The notes under the pieces are model-generated. The model was not told where the DNA came from and did no database searches. It was given only the letters and a program-made list of their open reading frames with translations. A DNA stretch of 45,904 bases, taken from Magnetococcales bacterium. GTDB lineage: Bacteria > Pseudomonadota > Magnetococcia > Magnetococcales > UBA8363. This document shows, one piece after another, positions 6,477 to 19,669 of this stretch (positions within the stretch are counted from its first letter, which is position 1; each line of letters begins with the position of its first letter). Both the position numbers and the translations under genes were made by a program. The DNA is taken from NCBI GenBank assembly GCA_002753515.1, contig PEAK01000031.1:1-45904 (forward strand). Direction: 5' to 3'.

Positions 6477-7410
6477 GATTTTGCCTCCTCCGTGCCGCCA
6501 GCCAACGTCCGATGCCGTGGAACATGACGCCGACGAATGCCCCCCCCATCCCGAGAATGCCCAGGGCGTCCAACAAGGGATGCCTGGTCATGCCGATGAC
6601 ATAAAAGTCGCTCAATACCACGCCATTGATGAATCCGGTACGGCGTTCGCTTTCGTGCAAACGATATTTGTAGAGCTTGGTCAGCAGGATGGAATCGCGA
6701 CTGTGGCAGGCTTCACAGGTACGTTCCGCACGTGCCGCCGGCTCAATGGCATGGATGACCGACCCGGGTCGGGGGGTATGGCACTCCAGACAACGCACCT
6801 CTTTCAGATGCAGCGGGGCTTTGGGAATGATCCTGTGTTTTTCTTCAGCGGACTCCCGGGTCCCGTGGCATTTCAGGCATACGTCATTATCCCGATCAAC
6901 GATATTTCCCTCTGGTGTTTTGATCTCTTCCAGTCGGCTCTCATGGGGGTTATGGCAGGAGAAGCAGTCAAATCCCGACACGCCCCTTTGCACATGCACG
7001 CTTTTTTTATATTGGGCGGTGATACCCACCAATCGCATCCGTTGCAGCACTTTTTCGCCGGTGTGGCAATCGGCGCAGGAGTGGTACTGATCGGTATTTT
7101 CCGGTCGATGCGGCAAGGCGGCGAAATCCCCTTTGTGACAGGTCACACATCCCTGTTGCCCATGGTTGGACTGGGAAAACTTGTGCGCATCCACGTGAAA
7201 GTCCCGCATTTTGCCCGTGGCCAACTCCTGATAACGGAGTGTTTCCATGCCGTGGCACCGGAGGCACCGGGCATTTTTTTCCGCCACGTTCGTTGCACTC
7301 TCATCCGCTTGCAGCGCAAGGGGATGCAACGCCCCGACCAGCAGTACCAAACTTAGGAGGGCATTGTGTGGCCAGGAGTTCGTTGTCTGTGTCACACTTG
7401 GTTTCGTCAT
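6466..7410 (-). CDS. Heptahaem c-type cytochrome with C-terminal membrane anchor
   Basis: 314 residues; ATG 7410 follows GGATGAAGGATC. A signal peptide (about 15-35, ending LALQA) leads to a periplasmic domain with seven CXXCH sites at Cys49, 88, 112, 149, 178, 207 and 232. A single membrane helix (about 282-304) and a basic tail finish the protein. First gene of a three-gene operon with a cytochrome b and an octahaem cytochrome c. The pairing of a C-terminally anchored heptahaem protein with a dihaem b subunit, next to a sigma-54 activator, parallels Geobacter CbcA/CbcB, a quinol:periplasmic cytochrome oxidoreductase used in low-potential Fe(III) respiration. Orthology to CbcA is not shown here; the likeness is in architecture. 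Confidence 0.8.
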   Translation of the reverse strand: MTKPSVTQTTNSWPHNALLSLVLLVGALHPLALQADESATNVAEKNARCLRCHGMETLRYQELATGKMRDFHVDAHKFSQSNHGQQGCVTCHKGDFAALPHRPENTDQYHSCADCHTGEKVLQRMRLVGITAQYKKSVHVQRGVSGFDCFSCHNPHESRLEEIKTPEGNIVDRDNDVCLKCHGTRESAEEKHRIIPKAPLHLKEVRCLECHTPRPGSVIHAIEPAARAERTCEACHSRDSILLTKLYKYRLHESERRTGFINGVVLSDFYVIGMTRHPLLDALGILGMGGAFVGVMFHGIGRWLAARRRQNHET

Positions 7411-7477
7411 GATCCTTCATCCTTCCCATCGGCAGGGTGATCGGCCACCTGTATTCCGTATCTTTAAAAATATAATA

Positions 7478-7493
7478 CGCACGTCATGTGCCA
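7478..7493 (-). promoter_or_regulatory. Sigma-54 (-24/-12) promoter of the cytochrome operon
   Basis: The minus strand reads TGGCACATGACGTGCG. GG and GC fall exactly 12 bp apart, as required, and match TGGCACG-N4-TTGCA at most consensus positions. Transcription would begin near 7467, giving a leader of about 57 nt before ATG 7410. An NtrC-type activator is encoded divergently next door. Confidence 0.75.
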
Positions 7494-7545
7494 GTCACGT
7501 TCCCATGGCCTGTTATATATTTTCATATATTTATCATATAATTAC

Positions 7546-7574
7546 ATATTGTACAGAAAATAATATATTGTACA
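7546..7574. promoter_or_regulatory. Tandem ATATTGTACA repeats, candidate upstream activator sites
   Basis: Two exact copies of ATATTGTACA at 7546-7555 and 7565-7574, 19 bp centre to centre (close to two helical turns), lie 55-85 bp upstream of the -24 element of the sigma-54 promoter. That is where enhancer-binding proteins usually sit. A weaker inverted half (GATACAAT) follows near 7592. Binding by the adjacent activator is inferred from position only. Confidence 0.45.
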
Positions 7575-7786
7575 TGAAATTTCCCTTGAAATGATACAAT
7601 GCACCCCGATGCATCCGCATGGACCGATGATGCCAAGGGATTTTTCTTCAATATTTCATTGAAAATCATAAAAAAAGACCTGTCCTGTCCCAAGCGGGGG
7701 AAAGGGGCTTGACACAAACTGTTTCATGCGACACAGTGTCCCAAGGATTATCCCCTTTCCCCCCTGCCCAGGCGTTGCGCCCGAAC

Positions 7787-9487
7787 ATGACGAAACCTCC
7801 CCGGAAAATTTTGTGTGTTGATGATGATCCCAGTGTTTTATATTTGTTTTCCGTCCTGCTCACCGAAGCGGGATACCTTGTGGAAAAAGCGGAATCGATG
7901 GCCCAAGCCATTGAACGCATCAGCCAGAACGCCTTTGATCTGGTGGTTTCCGACATCATGCTGGGAGACGCCAATGGCCTGGACCTGGTCAAGCAGATCC
8001 GGCAAACCGATTCCTCGACCTACGTGATCCTGGTTACCGGCAATCCCAGCCTGGAAACCGCCCAGGACGCCTTGCACCAGGGGGTTTTCGATTACATTCC
8101 CAAACCTGTTTCAACCAACACCTTGCTGGAGCGGGTTCGCGTCGCCCTGGAACACAAGGCATTACGCGATGAGCGTAATGCCATGCAATTACACCTGCAA
8201 GCGATCTTTCGCAGCGTTCAGGAAGCGATCATATCGGTGGATGCCGGTTACACCATACGGGAAATCAATGACGCCGCCCAGCGTATCTGTGGTTTGTCCT
8301 CCCAGATGATCGGCCAATCCTTTTTGCAAATTGTCCATTGCGAACCGTTGCGTGACTTGGTGACCCGGGTGTTTCAGGAACGACACCCCGTGGAACGCGT
8401 TGAATTGACCTGTCAAAATGCCCTGGGACGGCAGCAGGTGATCCATGTTTCGGTATCGCCCCTGCTGGATGACGGTGGCCTGTTCACCGGGGCTGTTGTC
8501 GTCATACTCGATTTCACCCGCATGGCCTTGCTGGAACAAAGTCGGCGGGAACGCAGTCGTTTTCACGGCATGATGGGGCAAAGTACCGCCATGCGCAAAC
8601 TATTCAGCCTGATCGAAGACCTCGCCGCCGTGGAAACAACCGTTCTGATCACCGGGGAAAGTGGCACCGGCAAGGAGTTGGTCGCCGAAGCCTTGCATTT
8701 TCAAGGGAGCCGGGGAAAAGGTCCCCTGGTCAAGGTCAACTGCGCGGGCCTGACGGAAACCTTGTTGGAAAGCGAATTGTTCGGCCACGTCAAGGGGGCC
8801 TTCACCGGGGCTTTTCGCGACAAGATCGGTCGTTTTCAATTGGCCGACCGGGGGACGCTGTTCCTGGATGAAATCGGCGACATCAGCCCGGGCATGCAAA
8901 CCCGATTGCTCCGGGTACTCCAGGAAAAGACCATAGAAAAAGTCGGGGATGCCCAACCCATTCACGTTGACGTTCGCATCATCGCCGCCACCAACCGCAA
9001 TTTACGCGACAAGGTACAGATGGGGACATTCCGCGAAGATTTGTATTACCGTCTGAACGTCGTCGAGATTCAACTCCCCCCGTTGCGCGAACGAAAAGAA
9101 GACATCGGCTTGTTGACCGACCAATTTATTCGCAAATTTTGCGTCAAGTTCAATAAGAGTATTGATTCGGTAACCGAAGAAGTCATGAGCGTACTACTCA
9201 ATTATTCCTGGCCCGGCAATATACGGGAACTGGAACATATTATTGAACGGGCGTTCGTGGTTTGCCGCAATCATGTCATTACCTTGGAACATTTGCCGTC
9301 CAACCTGGTGGAAGGCAAAATCCCCCCTCTGCCCGCCAAGGGGGGCGGAGCCGGCGATGAATCGGAGCGTGCGCATATTCTCAAGGCATTGGAGCAAGCT
9401 CGCTATAATAAGGGCAAAGCGGCGCAACTCCTGGGAATGAGCCGCAGTACTCTTTATCGTAAGCTCGAAAGTTTAAAAATAATCTAA
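7787..9487 (+). CDS. NtrC-type sigma-54 activator (REC-PAS-AAA+-HTH)
   Basis: 566 residues from ATG 7787; a TTG at 7709 would add 26 residues and has a purine-rich site before it, so the start is uncertain. A receiver domain (about 7-120) has Asp12, Asp13, phosphoacceptor Asp56 and Lys106. A PAS-like domain spans about 135-250. The AAA+ domain (about 262-490) has Walker A GESGTGKE (290-297), the sigma-54-contact loop GAFTGA (337-342), Walker B GTLFLDEIGD and an arginine-finger region. A Fis-type HTH ends the protein (AAQLLGMSRSTLYRKLESL). It most likely drives the divergent cytochrome operon in response to phosphorylation or a PAS-sensed redox cue. No partner histidine kinase is visible. Confidence 0.85.
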   Translation: MTKPPRKILCVDDDPSVLYLFSVLLTEAGYLVEKAESMAQAIERISQNAFDLVVSDIMLGDANGLDLVKQIRQTDSSTYVILVTGNPSLETAQDALHQGVFDYIPKPVSTNTLLERVRVALEHKALRDERNAMQLHLQAIFRSVQEAIISVDAGYTIREINDAAQRICGLSSQMIGQSFLQIVHCEPLRDLVTRVFQERHPVERVELTCQNALGRQQVIHVSVSPLLDDGGLFTGAVVVILDFTRMALLEQSRRERSRFHGMMGQSTAMRKLFSLIEDLAAVETTVLITGESGTGKELVAEALHFQGSRGKGPLVKVNCAGLTETLLESELFGHVKGAFTGAFRDKIGRFQLADRGTLFLDEIGDISPGMQTRLLRVLQEKTIEKVGDAQPIHVDVRIIAATNRNLRDKVQMGTFREDLYYRLNVVEIQLPPLRERKEDIGLLTDQFIRKFCVKFNKSIDSVTEEVMSVLLNYSWPGNIRELEHIIERAFVVCRNHVITLEHLPSNLVEGKIPPLPAKGGGAGDESERAHILKALEQARYNKGKAAQLLGMSRSTLYRKLESLKII

Positions 9488-9563
9488 TCCCCCCATCAGC
9501 CGCTTCCGATATACGGCATAGCCCCGAATCAACCGCAGCCTCTAATGTGGCGAGGAGATACCG

Positions 9564-10232
9564 ATGAAGGAAATGCTGAGGAAAATGGGCAAGCGTGGCA
9601 AGTGCTTGTTGTTGGCGGGTGTCATGACCCCGGTCCTGACCGCTTGTGGCCACGTCGTGGATCCGAACATGGCACAACTACCGACTTACGACATGCCCGC
9701 CGCTGTCGTCGTCAAGACCCCTCCCGCCCGTCTGCATGGTGGCGCGGCGGCGGTTGCACCTGGAATGCCGGCTCCAGTGGCCCCCCCTGTGATGGCAGGA
9801 GGCGTCATGGGTGCCAATCTGGCGCAGTTGGGCAATGGAGCCGTTACCGCCGTGCGGCCTGATGGGGCGACGGTGATTCAACAAACCCCCATCACGGTGC
9901 AACATCCCTCCATCGCCCTTCCCCAACCCCCCATCTGGGTAGGGAATCCGCCGATGGCCATTCCGTCACCGCCGCTGATCATCAACCAACCCGCTTTTTC
10001 TTATAATCAAGCGGAGATTTTGGTTCATCCGCCCCGGGTGGAGTTTGTTGAGACTGTGGTATTGCCGACGCAGGTCATTGCCGCCCAACCGGTGATCGCT
10101 GCGGTACCTCCGCCGCCTCCGCCGCCTCCGCCGCCCCCCGCGCCGGTACCGGAAAAACCCAAGGTGACGCCACCGCCGATACCCAAGGTTGCACCCGTCA
10201 TCCCCAAGGAGGATGTCCTGCCCCCCAAATGA
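9564..10232 (+). CDS. Proline-rich lipoprotein of unknown function
   Basis: 222 residues; ATG 9564 has GGAGATACCG before it. A basic start and hydrophobic core end in a lipobox LTAC with Cys28, so it should be a lipid-anchored envelope protein. The mature part is low in complexity: Pro, Ala and Val rich, with repeated PPI/PSP motifs, an 11-proline run near residue 185-195 and a Pro/Lys tail. Such stretches form extended, possibly wall-spanning rods. First of four same-strand genes for secreted low-complexity proteins, starting 76 bp after the sigma-54 activator. No known family recognised. Confidence 0.7.
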   Translation: MKEMLRKMGKRGKCLLLAGVMTPVLTACGHVVDPNMAQLPTYDMPAAVVVKTPPARLHGGAAAVAPGMPAPVAPPVMAGGVMGANLAQLGNGAVTAVRPDGATVIQQTPITVQHPSIALPQPPIWVGNPPMAIPSPPLIINQPAFSYNQAEILVHPPRVEFVETVVLPTQVIAAQPVIAAVPPPPPPPPPPPAPVPEKPKVTPPPIPKVAPVIPKEDVLPPK

Positions 10233-10276
10233 TTGTGGCATGGCATCAAGAATGCGGGAACCTGGAGAAACGATCC

Positions 10277-10636
10277 ATGTATAACAAGAAAACGATGATC
10301 CTGTCCGCCCTGGCCACCTTGTTGTTGCAGGTGAACCTCACTGAGGCAGGGCAGTTGATGGTACCCCATCAAGACCAGGATGAGGTTACCGTCCATACCT
10401 ACCCGGAAAAGTTTGCCCACCCCATGGATTATTGGTGGAATTTAAATCCGTCGCAAGCGGGTGCCTGGGACTACTTTTCGCCGGTCACCGATCCCTACCA
10501 ACCCATCGTTGTGGAGCAAGGGGCCCCGGGTACCCGTCCCCTGGAAGTGTTGGGCGTCCGTTTGAGCAAGTTGCCGGCCAAATACGCCAGCCCACAAGCC
10601 ACGGGATCGCCGCTGTATCATGGCAAAGGAAATTAA
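10277..10636 (+). CDS. Small secreted aromatic-rich protein, unknown
   Basis: 119 residues from ATG 10277 (GGAGAAACGATCC upstream; an earlier in-frame start at 10229 has no ribosome site). A signal peptide covers about 1-24 (ILSALATLLLQVNLTEA). The mature region contains HPMDYWWNLNPSQAGAWDYF and several Pro-Tyr/Tyr-Gln motifs, no cysteine and no membrane helix. Second gene of the envelope cluster, 44 bp after the lipoprotein gene. Function unknown. Confidence 0.65.
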   Translation: MYNKKTMILSALATLLLQVNLTEAGQLMVPHQDQDEVTVHTYPEKFAHPMDYWWNLNPSQAGAWDYFSPVTDPYQPIVVEQGAPGTRPLEVLGVRLSKLPAKYASPQATGSPLYHGKGN

Positions 10637-10677
10637 AACGATAACTGCTGTCCGTCCGCTCTCATGAAGGAATAACC

Positions 10678-11472
10678 ATGAAAATGTCCATTGCAAACAT
10701 CGACCTGTCCAAATCTTTCCTGGCCTCAGCCGCATTGGTGGCTGTTAGCTTTGTCGCACCCGGTTCGGCGCATGCCGATGTTGCCACGGCAACCGCATTG
10801 GGGGGCACCGCCTTGTTGACCTCCATGACCCATGCGGCAACCCCCGTTGGTGCGCCGGTAGCGGTCCCGGCATTTCCACAGGCCTCGGTTGCCCCTCCGG
10901 CGATCATTGCCCAGCCCATGGCGATGATCCCCCCCAAGCTCTCGCCGCTCCATGAGCCGACGATTTATTCATCCGTGTCGCCGACGGCGGCCCCCGCGCC
11001 CGAAGTCAAACAGATGCAGCAAATCTCCTATCAGGTTTCGCCGCCTTCGGCACCGTCGATGAACATGCCCAGCTATCAAACGGGTCCGTCGCCGCTGCAA
11101 CAACAGCAACCGATGATGCAACAACAACCGATGATGCAACAACAACCGATGATGCAACAGCAGCAGCCGGCGGCGCAGTATGCACCCACGACCGGTCAGC
11201 CGCTTGCGGGATATCAGGGTCAAGGTTATCCGATGATGCAACAAGGCGGCATGTCTTCGCTGCAATCCGGCATGGCCATGCAACAGCCCAACATGTACAA
11301 CCCGCAACAAGCCGCCATGATGCCGCAGCAAAGCGCTCTGACGGCGCAACAGGCTGCCATGATGTACCAACAGCAACAACAGCAAGGAACGGTCATGTCA
11401 CAGCAAACCGCCTTGGCAGCCGGGGGATACGGTCCGAGCATGCCAGGTTCCACGTTCGCCTACGCACGCTGA
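10678..11472 (+). CDS. Secreted Gln/Met-rich low-complexity protein with QQQPMM repeats
   Basis: 264 residues; ATG 10678 follows AAGGAATAACC. The signal peptide is about 1-33 (ending GSAHA). The mature chain is Ala/Pro-rich first, then from about 135 becomes Gln- and Met-rich, with three perfect or near-perfect QQQPMM units and further QQ, MM and MMQQ clusters up to about 245. There are no cysteines after the leader. Met-rich repeats can bind Cu(I), and Gln-rich chains can self-assemble; either is speculation. Third gene of the envelope cluster. No homologous family recognised. Confidence 0.7.
   Translation: MKMSIANIDLSKSFLASAALVAVSFVAPGSAHADVATATALGGTALLTSMTHAATPVGAPVAVPAFPQASVAPPAIIAQPMAMIPPKLSPLHEPTIYSSVSPTAAPAPEVKQMQQISYQVSPPSAPSMNMPSYQTGPSPLQQQQPMMQQQPMMQQQPMMQQQQPAAQYAPTTGQPLAGYQGQGYPMMQQGGMSSLQSGMAMQQPNMYNPQQAAMMPQQSALTAQQAAMMYQQQQQQGTVMSQQTALAAGGYGPSMPGSTFAYAR
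11101..11154 (+). repeat. Three tandem 18-bp units coding QQQPMM
   Basis: Units 11101-11118, 11119-11136 and 11137-11154 follow the pattern CAACAACAACCGATGATG; the first differs by one base. The near-identity at third codon positions points to recent repeat expansion rather than protein-level selection alone. Confidence 0.9.
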
Positions 11473-11566
11473 GCCATAACGCAGGCATTGACGGTGATCC
11501 CACCAGCCGTTGCAAGGGTGGAATCACCGAGCTGGAAATGAAGTTTCTTTAAGAAGGGGAAAGAAG

Positions 11567-12208
11567 ATGATCTTTTCCAAAATCAGGCCAGCCACTCCCA
11601 TGACACTGAGGCTTGTTTTCGCGCTGGTCACGGCTCTCCTCGCCAACACGGGTTTGGCGGAAAGCCCTGCCAAGATCAAGCCGGATGCCAGGCCGGATGC
11701 GAAGCCGCTCCGGGAGTTCATTTATTATCCCAATTATGCCCAGTCGCCGTACAACTACCAATCGACGGGGGATTTTGCCATGACGCCCATGGTGATTCCA
11801 CCGTCCGTACCGGTGCTTCGGCAACCTTCGGCGATGATCGTCGATGCCCCACCCCTGGGTTCTGGTGCCCCGCCCGGGGGTGTGGGATTGGAATTGCCGC
11901 CGCCGCCATCCATGCCACGGGTAGCCGCAGCCGCTGGCCCCGCCTTTGTCGGGGGTGGCATCCCCGGTCAACCGGGCAAGGGATACAGCCTGCATGTGGG
12001 CAGTTCCATCGATGCGGCGCATGCCGACCTGCTCATGCAACAGGTCACGACCGCCGGAATTCCAGCCTACCGTCGTCCCATGTCCTACAACGGCCTCAAC
12101 TGGGAACAGATCCACGCCGGACCTTTTGAAAGCTATGAGAAGGTGACCCAGGTTGCCAAATTGTTGCAGGACCAATTGCAAATTCAAGGGCGCATTGTAA
12201 CCCACTGA
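11567..12208 (+). CDS. SPOR-domain periplasmic protein
   Basis: 213 residues from ATG 11567 (AAGGGGAAAGAAG upstream; an earlier start at 11510 lacks one). A signal peptide spans about 1-31 (ending NTGLA). A Tyr/Pro/Gly-rich linker (about 32-135) includes YYPNYAQSPYNYQS. The C-terminal about 75 residues (from GKGYSLHVGS to QIQGRIVTH) have the SPOR pattern: a strand, the AHADLLMQQV helix, WEQIHAGPFESYEKV, then helix and strand. SPOR domains bind denuded peptidoglycan glycan strands, usually at the division septum. Last gene of the cluster, followed by a terminator; it could tether the set to the cell wall. Confidence 0.75.
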   Translation: MIFSKIRPATPMTLRLVFALVTALLANTGLAESPAKIKPDARPDAKPLREFIYYPNYAQSPYNYQSTGDFAMTPMVIPPSVPVLRQPSAMIVDAPPLGSGAPPGGVGLELPPPPSMPRVAAAAGPAFVGGGIPGQPGKGYSLHVGSSIDAAHADLLMQQVTTAGIPAYRRPMSYNGLNWEQIHAGPFESYEKVTQVAKLLQDQLQIQGRIVTH

Positions 12209-12216
12209 AGACTGGA

Positions 12217-12246
12217 GAGGCGGCGTCAAAACATCGACACCGCCTC
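12217..12246 (+). terminator. Rho-independent-type terminator of the envelope cluster
   Basis: GAGGCGGCGTC (12217-12227) pairs with GACACCGCCTC (12236-12246) with one mismatch across an 8-nt loop, followed by TTTCGCTTT. It lies 9 bp after the SPOR gene. Confidence 0.75.
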
Positions 12247-12347
12247 TTTCGCTTTCTAAACCGCATCTATTTTGGGATGCGTAGTTTTTGTCATCCCCGC
12301 CCCCGATTAAAGCATTCGAGGGCAGGCTTCAGCGGGGATCCAGAGCC

Positions 12348-12445
12348 CGTCATTCCCGCGAAAGCGGGAACCCCGAATGCCTGAATCGGGGGAGATCTTC
12401 CTATCTCCCATGACTTTCTGGATTCCCGCTTTCGCGAGAATGACG
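12348..12445. repeat. REP/MITE-like palindromic element
   Basis: Inverted ends of about 25 bp, CGTCATTCCCGCGAAAGCGG at 12348-12367 onward and its near-complement ending at 12445, enclose about 46 bp. The ends contain the widespread ATTCCCGCGAAAGCGGGAA palindrome of intergenic repeats. A degenerate third arm (TCATCCCCGC ... GCGGGGATCCA) precedes it at about 12291-12342. It has no coding capacity and forms a large hairpin. Confidence 0.7.
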
Positions 12446-12481
12446 CTGGAAAATTACGTATCCCGAGTTGGTTTCGGTATA

Positions 12482-12718
12482 TCAATTGATCAGCCGCATG
12501 ACCTGTTTGCGCACATAGTCCGGGTCGAAGTCAGCCAAATCGCAAACAAATTTAAAATGGGTCCCCCCTTCCCGGAACCAGTTCCGGGCTGCCTCTTTCT
12601 CTTCCGGGTCCTTATGCGCTAAAGCGTCCTCCACGGCTGTTTCCAGAACGGCGATCCACAGCTTTTGCTCGGGGGTATAAGGCGTATCCTGGGTAAAGGC
12701 ATCCAATCTGTTCTTCAT
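12482..12718 (-). CDS. Small helical protein of unknown function
   Basis: 78 residues from ATG 12718, which follows AAGGATGACACC. It is charged and predicted helical, with the motif AARNWFREGGTHFKFVCDLA followed by DPDYVRKQVMRLI. This WF...VC.LA..DP..VR pattern occurs in small phage-like or regulatory proteins of proteobacteria, but I cannot assign a family or function. No signal peptide. The gene sits alone between a palindromic repeat and the STAS gene, which is on the other strand. Confidence 0.55.
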   Translation of the reverse strand: MKNRLDAFTQDTPYTPEQKLWIAVLETAVEDALAHKDPEEKEAARNWFREGGTHFKFVCDLADFDPDYVRKQVMRLIN

Positions 12719-12908
12719 GGTGTCATCCTTAGCATGCCATAACAATGGAGTGATTTCGGTCACGCAATTATCGCAAGCAATAAAGATACCAACCGTAAGT
12801 CAACGCAAAAATACAGTGCCCCCCAGAACGGCAGTAGCTTTTGGGGATCCTTTGCTGTAACCTGAAAATTGGGTGGGCGGAACAGATTATTCAACGTTGG
12901 GAGGGATC

Positions 12909-13205
12909 ATGCCAATCCAGGTCGTGTCTGAAGACAACAGCGTTACCATCACCCTGGAAGAACGCTTTAATTTTGAAATTCATCGCGAATTCCGCGATGC
13001 GTGTACCAAATTCCCCCCCACCACCGCGTTCATCATCGATATGGGACGCGTGGAATACCTGGACAGCTCCGCACTGGGCATGTTGCTCCTGCTGCGGGAA
13101 CATGCCGGTGGTGACAAATCCAACATCAGACTCGTCAACTGCAAACCAACGGTTGAGCGCATCTTCAAGGTGGCCAATTTCGACCGCCTTTTCAAGCTTG
13201 CCTGA
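12909..13205 (+). CDS. STAS-domain anti-sigma factor antagonist-like protein
   Basis: 98 residues; ATG 12909 follows GGGAGGGATC. The whole protein is one STAS domain: a beta-rich start (MPIQVVSEDNSVTITLEERF), then AFIIDMGRVEYLDSSALGML, whose DSSALG loop carries the phosphorylatable Ser (53 or 54), then LRLVN-type strand and C-terminal helix. Family members bind and release partner proteins according to phosphorylation by a switch kinase. No anti-sigma factor or kinase partner is adjacent; such stand-alone STAS proteins often act with a distant PP2C/HptB-type module. Confidence 0.8.
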   Translation: MPIQVVSEDNSVTITLEERFNFEIHREFRDACTKFPPTTAFIIDMGRVEYLDSSALGMLLLLREHAGGDKSNIRLVNCKPTVERIFKVANFDRLFKLA

Positions 13206-14626: not shown

Positions 14627-15394
14627 CTACTTCAAGGGATCCAACTGCACGCGGCGGTTCATGGCACGCCCTTGTGGTGTGGAATTGTCCGCAATGGGCT
14701 TGTCCATACCGTAACCGACGGTGGTCAGACGTTTGGCGCTCACACCCTTGGCGATGAAATATTGGCGCACCGCTTCGGCCCGGAATTCGGACAATGCCTG
14801 ATTGTGTTTACGATTGCTCGTACTGTCCGTATGCCCTTGAATCTCCACATTCATGGTGGGATTCTGGTTCAAAACCATGATGACACTGTCCAGGTTGGCG
14901 AAATCGACCGGCTTGATCGTGGCTTTATCGCTGTCGAAGTGGAGGTTTTCCACGACCCAGCAACCGACCTCATTCACGTGCGCCCCTTTGGGGGTACCGG
15001 GACATTTGTCACGGTTGTCGGGCACGCCGTCGCCGTCGGTGTCGATGGGACAGCCATTTTTATCGACGGCCACCCCTCTGGGGGTATCGGGGCATTTGTC
15101 CAGGTAGTCGGGCACGCCATCGCCGTCAGAGTCCAGTGGACAGCCTTTGGCATCGACCGGGACGCCCTTCGGGGTGTTGGGACAAGCGGGTGGGGGAGGG
15201 GCTTGCTCAACCGTGCGCTCGCAAAAGTAGCACTGAGTTCCCGCTTTGCCAACGTTCGCTTTCCCATCCTGGGGATGCCATTGCTTGTATCCACCGTAGA
15301 CCCAACCTTCGGGTGTTGTTGGCGGCGCGCAAGAGGCGAGGGTAAGCGAAAGGAGGCCAACTGCGGCCAAGGTCGCTAACCGAAATATTTTCAT
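14627..15394 (-). CDS. OmpA-family lipoprotein with TSP3 calcium-binding repeats
   Basis: 255 residues from the second of two ATGs (15394), which has better spacing to AAGGAG. Signal peptide with lipobox LASC, Cys22. A short region with CYFC follows, then two to three thrombospondin type-3 repeats (DSDGDGVPDYLDKCP, DTDGDGVPDNRDKCP), each expected to bind Ca2+ and linked by Cys-Pro spacers. The C-terminal OmpA domain (about 150-255) has GHTDSTSNRKHNQALSEFRA, whose Asp and Arg bind diaminopimelate of peptidoglycan. It should tether outer membrane to wall. It lacks an OmpA barrel. Confidence 0.85.
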   Translation of the reverse strand: MKIFRLATLAAVGLLSLTLASCAPPTTPEGWVYGGYKQWHPQDGKANVGKAGTQCYFCERTVEQAPPPPACPNTPKGVPVDAKGCPLDSDGDGVPDYLDKCPDTPRGVAVDKNGCPIDTDGDGVPDNRDKCPGTPKGAHVNEVGCWVVENLHFDSDKATIKPVDFANLDSVIMVLNQNPTMNVEIQGHTDSTSNRKHNQALSEFRAEAVRQYFIAKGVSAKRLTTVGYGMDKPIADNSTPQGRAMNRRVQLDPLK

Positions 15395-15397
15395 CAT

Positions 15398-15740
15398 AAA
15401 CTCCTTGCTACTGTTAGTAAAAGATATTGACCACCACAACGGATCCATCAGGCCGATCCATTCGACTGGCGGCGATTATCTCACATTCGCTAATTGTTGT
15501 ACAATGCGTTTCTTGGGTTGCGCTAGAATCAGTATCACTCCTCCACAAAACAAGGGACGGGGCGATAAATAAATTTTATTTAATAATGAATAGAAATTTT
15601 TATAGAGCAATCTCTTATTTACTTCCGTGATTTTTGCGGATAAGGTTTTCAAAGATGGGGATGGCCCTGCCCGCGCATCACCTTTTTCCCCTCAGGGGGG
15701 GAATTGGGCAAAAAGCCTCTGCTGCAAAGGAAAATAACAA
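15398..15740. other. Divergent intergenic region between the OmpA-like and two-CW genes
   Basis: About 343 bp, AT-rich in the middle. It contains a sigma-70-like promoter for the OmpA-like gene (see 15475-15504). A CCCCT/AGGGG palindrome lies at about 15688-15700, upstream of the two-CW gene. No coding region seen. Confidence 0.5.
15475..15504 (-). promoter_or_regulatory. Sigma-70-type promoter of the OmpA-like gene
   Basis: On the minus strand TTGTAC (15504-15499) and GATAAT (15480-15475) are separated by 18 bp, about 80 bp upstream of the start codon. Match is moderate at the -35 and good at the -10. Confidence 0.4.
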
Positions 15741-16945: not shown

Positions 16946-16989
16946 TTCTGCCGCAACAGGTGCAACACCTTTGGTGATTCAAGCGAGTG

Positions 16990-18987
16990 ATGATCATGCA
17001 ACATTGTCATGCAACGACACACGAGAAGGTATCCCTGGCAGAGAAGGCGGAGACGTGGCCGATCGCGGTCATCGGCCCCTCCAATGCGGGAAAAAGCGTG
17101 TTGTTCAATAGCCTTACGGGTGAATATACCATTGTCGCCAATTATCCGCAAACTACCGTGGAACCGGCCCGGCGCACCATCCAAACCGCGCATGGCCCGA
17201 TCGAACTGGTGGACACCCCGGGTATTGACTCTTTGACGGCCCATTCGCGTGACGAATACGCAACCCTCAAGGTATTGTTGCAAGATGGCTTGCATGGGGT
17301 GTTGTTTTGCGGGCATGCCCTCAACGTCAAACGCTCCCTGGTGCTGTTGGCGCAACTCTTGGAGCTGGAACTCCCCGTTATCGCCTGCTTCAACAAGGCG
17401 GACCAGGCGGCGAGCAGTGGCATGGTGACCGATGTCCACCATTTGACCAACCTCCTGGGCCTGCCGGTGCTGGAAATATCGGCGGAACACGACCTGGGAA
17501 CCAGGCAGGTCCGGGAATCCCTGGAGACGTTCCGCGGCAATCATGGCGTTTGGGCCCTGCCGGAAGTCAGCATTCGTTATCCCGCATTCGTGGAAGAAAC
17601 GGTCGAAAAACTGCGCAAACTGTTCCCCCTGGAACAGCGACCGAGCAAAGGCGTGGCCCTGTTGTTCATGCAGGACGAGGACATCGCCAAGGAGTGGTTC
17701 CGCGAGCGTCTGGCATCGGAAGTCCTGATTGAAGCCGCTCATATCGTTCAAGATTTCCAAAAGAGAATCACCTCGATTCGGTTTCGTCTGGCCCTGTTCC
17801 AGGCCCGGGAGGCCTGGGCCAATCGTTTGGCGGAGAAAACCGTCCACCAGGCGGCGCACGTCCTCCCGACCCTGCTGCAAAAAATGGGACAGGCCACTCG
17901 TCATCCCATTCTGGGTTGGCCCATTTTCATCCTGATACTCTGGCTGACGTTCAAGGGTGTTGGTTTCGGTGCCGTGCAATTGGGGAGTTGGTTGGATGGT
18001 CTGATCTTCACACCGGCCGCCCTGGCCATCGGCAAACTGATCCCCACCCCCTGGGTCAATGAATTCTTTGTAGGCCAATTCGGTTTGCTCACCATGGGGG
18101 TGGCCAACGCCATGGTGACCGTGGTGCCGATCTTGTTGATTTTTTTCTTAATCGTCCATTTTTTGGAAGATGTCGGCTATCTCCCCTCCTTGAGCGTCTT
18201 GACCAATCGCGCTTTGCTGCCGTTGGGATTGTCGGGCAAGGCGGTATTGCCGCTGGTTTTGGGCAGTGGCTGCAACACCACCGCGACCATGTCCAGTCGC
18301 ATCCTCGCCACGCGCAAGGAGCGCTTGCTGGTCTCCTTCCTGGTCGCCTTGGGGGTGCCGTGTTCGGTGCAGATGGGGGTGCTGTTCGCCATTTTGAGTA
18401 CCATGCCCTTCACCGCCTTGTTGACTGTTATGGGAACTGTGATCGGTACGACCATCCTGTGCGGACTGGCGATGAACCGCCTCCTCCCCGGCAGCATTCA
18501 CGGCCAGGAATTCATCCTGGAACTCCCCACCTTTTGCTTGCCGCACTGGCGCAACATCCTGCGCAAGACCTGGTTTCGCATCAAATGGTTCCTGATCGAG
18601 GCGGTACCGCTGTTCATCGCAGCGGCCATGGCCATGTTCACCCTGGAAAAAACCGGTGCCTTGACGGTCATCAAATCCTTGTTACACCCCATGGTGACCG
18701 GATTTTTACTGTTGCCGGATAAAATAACCGAAGTATTCATTCTGGTTTTGGCACGTCGCGAAGTCGGGGCCATCTACTTCAAGCAAATGGTCGAAAACGG
18801 TGAACTGGATTATCAACAAATTGTCACGGGACTCGTGGTCATCACGCTCTTCATCCCTTGCGCTTCCAATACCATGGTGATGATCAAGGAGTTTGGTGCC
18901 CGCTGGGCGGTGGCGACTAATCTGGCCATTATCTGTATCGCCATCCTGGTGGGAAAACTGGTCAGTCTCTCCCTGGCACTCCTTTAG
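16990..18987 (+). CDS. feoB: FeoB ferrous iron transporter
   Basis: 665 residues from ATG 16990 (GTG 16987 and ATG 16996 are alternatives; no strong ribosome site). A cytosolic G domain has G1 GPSNAGKS (29-36), switch Thr near 55, G3 DTPG (75-78) and G4 NKAD (135-138). About eight to ten membrane segments follow from residue 306. The two Gate motifs are LGSGCNTTAT (about 424-433) and PCSVQMGV (457-464). They differ from the classical GFGCNVPA and PCSARLPV but resemble a second FeoB type seen in anaerobes. It imports Fe2+ across the inner membrane, gated by GTP hydrolysis. Followed 25 bp later by a DtxR-FeoA gene. No separate feoA. Confidence 0.92.
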   Translation: MIMQHCHATTHEKVSLAEKAETWPIAVIGPSNAGKSVLFNSLTGEYTIVANYPQTTVEPARRTIQTAHGPIELVDTPGIDSLTAHSRDEYATLKVLLQDGLHGVLFCGHALNVKRSLVLLAQLLELELPVIACFNKADQAASSGMVTDVHHLTNLLGLPVLEISAEHDLGTRQVRESLETFRGNHGVWALPEVSIRYPAFVEETVEKLRKLFPLEQRPSKGVALLFMQDEDIAKEWFRERLASEVLIEAAHIVQDFQKRITSIRFRLALFQAREAWANRLAEKTVHQAAHVLPTLLQKMGQATRHPILGWPIFILILWLTFKGVGFGAVQLGSWLDGLIFTPAALAIGKLIPTPWVNEFFVGQFGLLTMGVANAMVTVVPILLIFFLIVHFLEDVGYLPSLSVLTNRALLPLGLSGKAVLPLVLGSGCNTTATMSSRILATRKERLLVSFLVALGVPCSVQMGVLFAILSTMPFTALLTVMGTVIGTTILCGLAMNRLLPGSIHGQEFILELPTFCLPHWRNILRKTWFRIKWFLIEAVPLFIAAAMAMFTLEKTGALTVIKSLLHPMVTGFLLLPDKITEVFILVLARREVGAIYFKQMVENGELDYQQIVTGLVVITLFIPCASNTMVMIKEFGARWAVATNLAIICIAILVGKLVSLSLALL

Positions 18988-19012
18988 ACAAACTTGGTGA
19001 AAAGGAAGAAAC

Positions 19013-19669
19013 ATGGGTCTGGATACCGCACACCGTCGGGATGAATTGTTGGAAATGTTATGGCGTCTTGGCGAACGGCATGAGGCGACCGTCCCCAACT
19101 TGCGTCGCTACGACCCGGAACATCGCTACGAGGAGTATCTGCGCGAATTCAGCACCAACGGCGTCATTCGTCTTGATGGGGAACGGATCGTCCTGACCCC
19201 GAAAGGGACGGAGATGGCCCGAAAGATCGTTCGCCGTCATCGCCTGGCGGAACGGTTGTTGGTGGATGTCATGGGCAAAACCCCCAAGGAAACCGAAGAT
19301 GCCGCCTGTGAGTTTGAACATATTTTGGCCCCGGAGCTTGTTGGTGCCATTTGCACGCTGCTCGGACACCCCATGACCTGCCCCCATGGACAGGTCATTC
19401 CCGAAGGGGAGTGTTGTCAAAAGAGACAAAAAGTGGTGTCAACGGCCGTGGTACCCCTGACCCAGGTGGAAACGGGCGAGGAGGTTCGCATCGCTTCCAT
19501 CGACAGCCAGGATCCACAACGGGTCAGTCGATTATTGGCTTTGGGTTTGTTGCCCGGAGCCACAATCGTCATGCAGCAACGTCATCCCACCATTGTCATC
19601 CAATTGGAACGGCGGCAGATTGCCTTTGAAGAATCCGTTGGTCAGGATTTGCGGGTGTGGCGTTCTTGA
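19013..19669 (+). CDS. DtxR-family metalloregulator fused to a FeoA domain
   Basis: 218 residues; ATG 19013 follows AAGGAAGAAAC. A winged HTH (about 1-70; VLTPKGTEMARKIVRRHRLAERLLVDV is typical of DtxR/MntR) is followed by the metal-binding/dimer region with EDAACEFEHILAPELV and HPMTCPHGQVIP. A Cys pair (GECCQKR) leads to a C-terminal SH3-like FeoA domain (about 145-216; VSRLLALGLLPGATIVMQQR). DtxR proteins repress iron or manganese uptake genes when metal is bound. Its place directly behind feoB suggests feedback control of this operon, and its FeoA domain may also serve as the missing FeoA. Confidence 0.85.
   Translation: MGLDTAHRRDELLEMLWRLGERHEATVPNLRRYDPEHRYEEYLREFSTNGVIRLDGERIVLTPKGTEMARKIVRRHRLAERLLVDVMGKTPKETEDAACEFEHILAPELVGAICTLLGHPMTCPHGQVIPEGECCQKRQKVVSTAVVPLTQVETGEEVRIASIDSQDPQRVSRLLALGLLPGATIVMQQRHPTIVIQLERRQIAFEESVGQDLRVWRS

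Follow-up and report, generated by a model that had tools for sequence, protein, structure and literature searches.

Braun's lipoprotein Lpp (PF04728), whose mature form of about 58 residues is a coiled-coil rod, is lipidated at the Cys of a lipobox followed at position +2 by a residue other than Asp, and in E. coli an L,D-transpeptidase attaches its C-terminal Lys to peptidoglycan. Other described proteins reach the cell wall or cross the periplasm in different ways: Pal/OmpA-type lipoproteins combine a lipid anchor on one side with peptidoglycan binding on the other, SPOR-domain proteins (PF05036; FtsN, DamX, DedD and RlpA) bind glycan strands, and TonB has an extended Pro-rich segment that can cross the periplasm. 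Here we describe a four-gene array (lipo, arom, gene 3 and gene 4) in a 45,904-nucleotide stretch of DNA from a Magnetococcales bacterium (contig PEAK01000031.1; hereafter the window), and we compare it with these systems.

Like Lpp, the lipo product is an outer-membrane-type lipoprotein (lipobox Cys, +2 residue other than Asp) with a repeated, putatively rod-like part and often a C-terminal Lys, and YkuD enzymes are encoded in the same genomes. It differs from Lpp in having no match to PF04728, in its length (222 aa), in its three partner genes, in a C-terminal Lys that is not universal and in a heptad, QPPxVVx, that is predicted to form beta strands instead of a coiled coil. With SPOR-domain proteins the array shares a SPOR domain on gene 4 (families f1 and f9, genus g17) and on the f10 lipoprotein, but the conserved core of gene 4 is its YYP region and not SPOR, and no other division-protein domain was found. 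If our preferred reading is right, the array would resemble Pal/OmpA-type lipoproteins in pairing a lipid anchor with peptidoglycan binding (by SPOR); it has no OmpA domain, however, and an OmpA-domain lipoprotein is encoded separately at 14627-15448, outside the array. The extended Pro-rich segment of the lipoprotein recalls TonB, but it is anchored by lipid rather than by a membrane helix and has no TonB domain. Unlike Met-rich metal-binding periplasmic proteins, the array proteins show no conserved Met or His ligands across families. If it acts as a tether, the array would work like Lpp or Pal while belonging to neither.

Layout and distribution of the array

The four genes follow one another on the forward strand between positions 9564 and 12208 and encode exported products of low complexity, in agreement with a preliminary description of the window. 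The first, lipo (9564..10232, +, 222 aa), encodes an outer-membrane-type lipoprotein with a lipobox, LTAC followed by G, and a poly-Pro tract (P11), and the second, arom (10277..10636, +), a small aromatic-rich exported protein of 119 aa whose signal peptide ends in AEA. Gene 3 (10678..11472, +) encodes a 264-aa exported protein, cleaved between AHA and D, with a Gln/Met-rich tail; the QQQPMM repeat reported for it is present as three copies of an 18-bp tandem repeat (11101..11159, +), which is lineage-specific. Gene 4 (11567..12208, +), for which we prefer the ATG at 11567 to the listed and less likely TTG at 11510, encodes 213 aa, in which a signal peptide is followed by a core with YYP and, at the C terminus, by a SPOR domain. 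The genes are separated by 44, 41 and 94 bp, and lipo starts 76 bp after the end of a gene for an NtrC-type response regulator (7787..9487, +; receiver, PAS, sigma-54 activator and Fis-type HTH), from which a multihaem cytochrome operon diverges. A terminator had been proposed to close the cluster; a terminator-like hairpin does stand 3' of gene 4 (12262..12281, +), but such sites are no more numerous in the region than in shuffled sequence. Promoter searches returned eight sigma-54 matches in the window at two or fewer mismatches, which is the chance level, with none in the gap between regulator and array (9488-9563), and no sigma-70 promoter on the forward strand upstream of the array; Rfam gave no match in 7000-13000. 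Past the array, at 12291-12470, lie inverted repeats (CATTCCCGCGAAAGCGGGAA / TTCCCGCTTTCGCGAGAATGAC) that look like a dispersed intergenic repeat, and farther on (16987-19669) a FeoB-like ferrous iron transporter gene is followed by an iron-dependent regulator-like gene, both recognised by eye.

In composition the array proteins stand apart from ten other proteins of the window. Proline makes up 13-24% of their residues against 3-6% in the ten, and charged residues account for 3% of mature gene 3 protein, 9% of mature lipoprotein and 14-16% of mature arom and gene 4 proteins, against 16-33% in the same comparison set. Between congeners, dN/dS for the array genes is about 0.06-0.27 in all comparisons with a computable dS (dS was saturated for arom and gene 3 in the comparison with L024), indicating purifying selection. 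As relatives carry these four genes in an identical order and selection on them is purifying, we take the array to be more than a chance assembly.

Judged by gene content and order, the array is a unit in fixed order, complete or partial, in all 14 Magnetococcales families sampled, and the co-occurrence anticipated in the preliminary description is thus borne out. Its order is conserved in f1, f2, f3, f5, f7, f8, f9, f12, f13 and f14: all four genes are found in the window's genus (f1), f9 and f7 and, in a diverged form, in f12, f2, f13, f3, f8 and f5, whereas f14 lacks gene 4 and retains lipo, arom and gene 3. Variant or partial arrays are seen in other lineages: f4 keeps a lipoprotein gene and gene 3; f10 has arom, gene 3 and a lipoprotein in which the aromatic motif is fused to SPOR; genus g17 of f7 combines a lipoprotein gene and a gene 3-like gene with a SPOR-bearing gene 4; and the forms of f6 and f11 sit at contig ends. 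The array is mostly single-copy. One f12 relative, a single contig of 4,719,581 bases that we take to be the genome of Magnetococcus marinus MC-1, carries the diverged form, and the array is also present in G025, presumably the genome of Magnetofaba australis IT-1.

Among the genomes searched, the array is restricted to Magnetococcales. The arom profile matched 34 of 48 Magnetococcales genomes and none of the 350 other Pseudomonadota genomes sampled, and plasmids and phages gave no match for arom; a lipoprotein scan of GTDB contigs, which reaches relatives with one of two short patterns, returned 16 loci, every one of them in Magnetococcales. Since it is both confined to this group in these searches and widespread in it, we take the array to have been present in the ancestor of the class. 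Two outcomes had been named beforehand as counting against a distinct system, homologues scattered without co-occurrence and clear assignment to a pilus, adhesin or division complex already known; neither was found.

The four protein families

A lipobox is present in every lipoprotein homologue identified, and the +2 residue is never Asp. In an alignment of 15 sequences (A1), C28 and the C-terminal K222 are invariant, and an N-terminal segment, DPxxxxxPTYxMPAAVVV, is conserved in f1, f7 and f9. Eight heptapeptide units of the form QPPxVVx follow at residues ~104-160 (in the window QTPITVQ, HPSIALP, QPPIWVG, NPPMAIP, SPPLIIN, QPAFSYN, QAEILVH and PPRVEF; PPVAVPQ is a further example of the repeat), and then a Pro-rich tail ending in EDVLPPK. 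Proline periodicity at a lag of seven residues exceeded all 500 shuffles in f9, f13, f3, f8, f14 and f6 and equalled the highest shuffle in f7, while a clear heptad repeat was not detected in the lipoproteins of f12, f5, f2 and g17. As the poly-Pro tail dominates its proline count, the heptad of the window's lipoprotein rests on the alignment and on an AlphaFold model, in which residues 103-154 form eight strands spaced seven residues apart (local pLDDT ~64-85). The model is weak overall (pLDDT 59, pTM 0.23) and gives no confident global fold, and a Foldseek search with it against the PDB produced nothing with E below 0.001 (best E 1.1). The C-terminal Lys is found in all 15 rows of A1 and also in f4, f5, f6, f13, f14 and f12-g16, to be set against a background of 10% among 249 neighbouring ORFs and read with the caution that the Lys-bearing lineages are not independent; it is missing in f2, f3, f8, f12-g12 and some g17 members. 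The lipoprotein of the presumed MC-1 genome is rich in Tyr, Gln and Ala.

The arom protein is marked by the motif HPxDYWWxxxPSxxGxWDYxxPV, whose HPxDYWWxxxPSxxGxWDY core occurs in nearly all homologues; its AlphaFold model is poor (pLDDT 48, pTM 0.17). Gene 3 protein has a short hydrophobic segment, ATATALGGTALLTSMTHA, past the signal cleavage site, and a conserved IYSSVSP; across families the hydrophobic segment and YSSVxP are what is kept. Charged residues are scarce in this family (3-9%). Met accounts for 8-13% of residues in a number of lipoproteins and gene 3 products, but the Met/Gln repeats are absent from the gene 3 homologues of genus g7, where Met falls to 2%, and the alignments show no Met, His or Cys conserved across families besides the lipobox Cys and the start Met. 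No second full array was found in the window's genome, which does contain orphan gene 3 paralogues (G000:C4:16860-17324 and 18077-18547, L104; G000:C104:20832-21110, L105) with the hydrophobic segment, IYTSVNP and a low-complexity tail, two of which form a tandem pair with a malic enzyme-like gene downstream.

The conserved core of gene 4 protein reads YYPNxAxSxYxYQSTGxFAxxPMVIPPxVP, with the YYP and PMVIPP stretch present in f1, f7-g7 and f9. In the window its SPOR domain (residues 137-205; E 7.6e-4) scores 20.2 bits, just below the Pfam cut-off of 21, and relatives score above it (27.4 bits in the f10 fusion, 25.7 in g17 and 23.4 in f12-g16). SPOR is carried in five lineages, by gene 4 itself (f1, f9 and g17), by a separate downstream gene (f12-g16) or by the aromatic lipoprotein of f10 (L080:10306-11055), in which a lipobox precedes the aromatic motif fused to SPOR and which thereby links the aromatic protein to SPOR. 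The domain is absent from the gene 4 homologues of g7, f12-g12, f13, f3 and f5, and gene 4 of the presumed MC-1 genome likewise lacks it. Profile searches of each protein, a check proposed in advance, agree with the initial impression that only SPOR is recognisable: Pfam and NCBIfam yielded no other family match for the array proteins, and no curated pilus or adhesin family. A PDB sequence search returned nothing for arom or gene 4, and in the open-licence literature we found no description of these proteins and no paper on Magnetococcales and the SPOR domain.

A candidate link between outer membrane and peptidoglycan

From these sequence features, we lean tentatively towards reading the array as a scaffold or tether between outer membrane and peptidoglycan. 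The lipoprotein would be exported and lipidated, and its +2 residue suggests the outer membrane as its destination. The heptapeptide QPP units would make up a stiff, extended rod, from which the Pro-rich tail would extend to the peptidoglycan. Through their short conserved motifs, the aromatic, YSSV and YYP proteins may dock on the lipoprotein, their flexible, low-charge tails of Gln, Pro, Met and Tyr could form a space-filling soft matrix, and SPOR, where present, would bind a glycan strand. The f10 fusion, in which the aromatic motif and SPOR stand together behind a lipobox, supports this mechanism. An L,D-transpeptidase may attach the frequent C-terminal Lys of the lipoprotein to peptidoglycan, a covalent link that is possible by analogy with E. 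coli Lpp. Lpp itself (PF04728) was matched in none of the 48 Magnetococcales genomes, although the E. coli positive control was, and YkuD domains (PF03734) occur in all 48; the whole assembly may thus tether outer membrane to peptidoglycan in bacteria that lack Lpp. We consider doubtful the bolder proposal that four mutually docking new families, built around a heptapeptide-repeat lipoprotein rod, make up a class-defining envelope structure that replaces Lpp as the joint between membrane and wall.

Several points weaken the tether model. SPOR is missing in most families, neither the C-terminal Lys nor the heptad repeat is universal, the AlphaFold models of lipoprotein and arom show no confident fold and the Foldseek search no match, YkuD enzymes have other roles, and tethers of the OmpA/Pal type also exist, as the OmpA-domain lipoprotein encoded at 14627-15448 recalls. 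Of the scaffold with lipid and peptidoglycan anchors that the preliminary description had suggested, the envelope location fits, but anchoring by SPOR is not general.

Neighbourhoods and competing readings

The surroundings of the array vary between families. The array had been said to follow the activator of a multihaem cytochrome operon; this holds in the window and its genus, where the NtrC-type regulator lies directly upstream and the divergent cytochrome operon beyond it, but elsewhere the neighbours are others, in some cases unrelated genes. The multihaem cytochrome is encoded in 35 of 48 genomes, and the window's genus is the only one in which it adjoins the array; outside f1 it lies elsewhere in the genome, and thus there is no obligate link between the two. 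A general association is not supported, given this separation and the presumed MC-1 genome, which has the array without this cytochrome. At L108:7052-10553 in f14, the gene for a homologue of the 721-aa multihaem cytochrome of the window is followed by a gene 3 paralogue, which connects the gene 3 family with that cytochrome a second time. The array of f2 and f12-g12 is preceded by genes for an OmpR-type regulator and a histidine kinase and followed by a cbb3 oxidase with ccoG/ccoH. These kinases, encoded directly upstream (L068:6124-8277, L072:6022-8145 and L079:1853-3922), have a long Pro/Gln/Met-rich segment, apparently periplasmic, before the second transmembrane region. Divergent from the regulator at the same loci is a gene for an exported Pro/Tyr/Gly-rich protein (L068:4144-4755, L072:4537-4986 and L079:88-795, all on the reverse strand), the f12-g12 copy of which has no Pfam match. 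In f13, oxidase accessory genes lie ~6 kb from the array; in g17 the array adjoins genes for a hybrid kinase and for cytochrome oxidase subunits I and II; and a diguanylate cyclase is near it in f13 and f8, with a similar-looking protein in f3. LptF/LptG-like genes upstream in g7 and an IHF-like gene downstream in f9 were recognised by eye, with no profile.

The main rival to the tether, though unlikely in our estimate, is an extracellular or surface-exposed fibrillar layer, in which the lipoprotein would be flipped outward and the Gln/Tyr/Pro/Met-rich proteins would assemble as an adhesive coat. It takes this place because the outer membrane of IT-1, like that of uncultured magnetic cocci, is reported to bear a fibrillar layer of undescribed composition (PMC5088516). 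The low charge of the gene 3 family and a Tyr/Gln/Pro/Ala/Gly-rich composition would suit such a coat, as would the Tyr/Gln/Ala-rich lipoprotein of the presumed MC-1 genome; the SPOR domains of five lineages, however, point to the periplasm, and in the neighbourhoods read no T2SS, T9SS or surface-sorting gene stands beside the array. A role in the sheath of the flagellar bundle (Sap) is a separate matter and is unlikely: G025 has the array, yet IT-1 has neither a flagellar sheath nor a Sap gene (PMC5088516).

Array proteins that are sensed by adjacent membrane sensors, or that modulate them, would make the array an accessory of envelope signalling, a role that we hold to be improbable. The OmpR-type regulator and Pro/Gln/Met-rich kinase directly upstream in f2 and f12, the cyclase near the array in f13 and f8 (and the similar-looking protein of f3), the NtrC-type regulator of f1 and the hybrid kinase of g17 fit this role, but the sensor region of the f12 kinase (in the presumed MC-1 genome) is unmatched in f1 and does not lie beside the array in most families, and, signalling genes being abundant in Magnetococcales genomes, such neighbours are often to be expected.

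The Met-rich metal-binding matrix offered as an alternative in the preliminary description fares worse, and we consider a Met/His-rich copper-binding matrix serving nearby oxidases or cytochromes very improbable. The oxidases beside the array in f2, f12-g12 and g17, the accessory genes in f13, the cytochromes of f1 and the Met content of several lipo and gene 3 proteins speak for it; against it, the Met/Gln repeats are absent in g7, no Met, His or Cys outside the lipobox is conserved across families, f3, f5, f7-g7, f8, f9 and f14 show no oxidase adjacency, and that of f2 and f12 may go back to one ancestral event. Finally, that the array consists of non-coding or decaying ORFs which only resemble a cluster, as low complexity and SPOR as sole recognised domain might suggest, is refuted by a gene order kept across families together with the dN/dS values, the lipobox and signal peptides being retained as well, and has next to no probability left.

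The attachment of outer membrane to wall in bacteria that lack Lpp is little settled outside a few lineages, and, if the tether reading holds, the array would be a compact candidate locus for it. If the array instead builds a surface layer, its genes would be candidates for the fibrillar layer on magnetic cocci. The array is conserved through a magnetotactic class that includes cultured strains (MC-1 and IT-1), and its role is thus directly testable.
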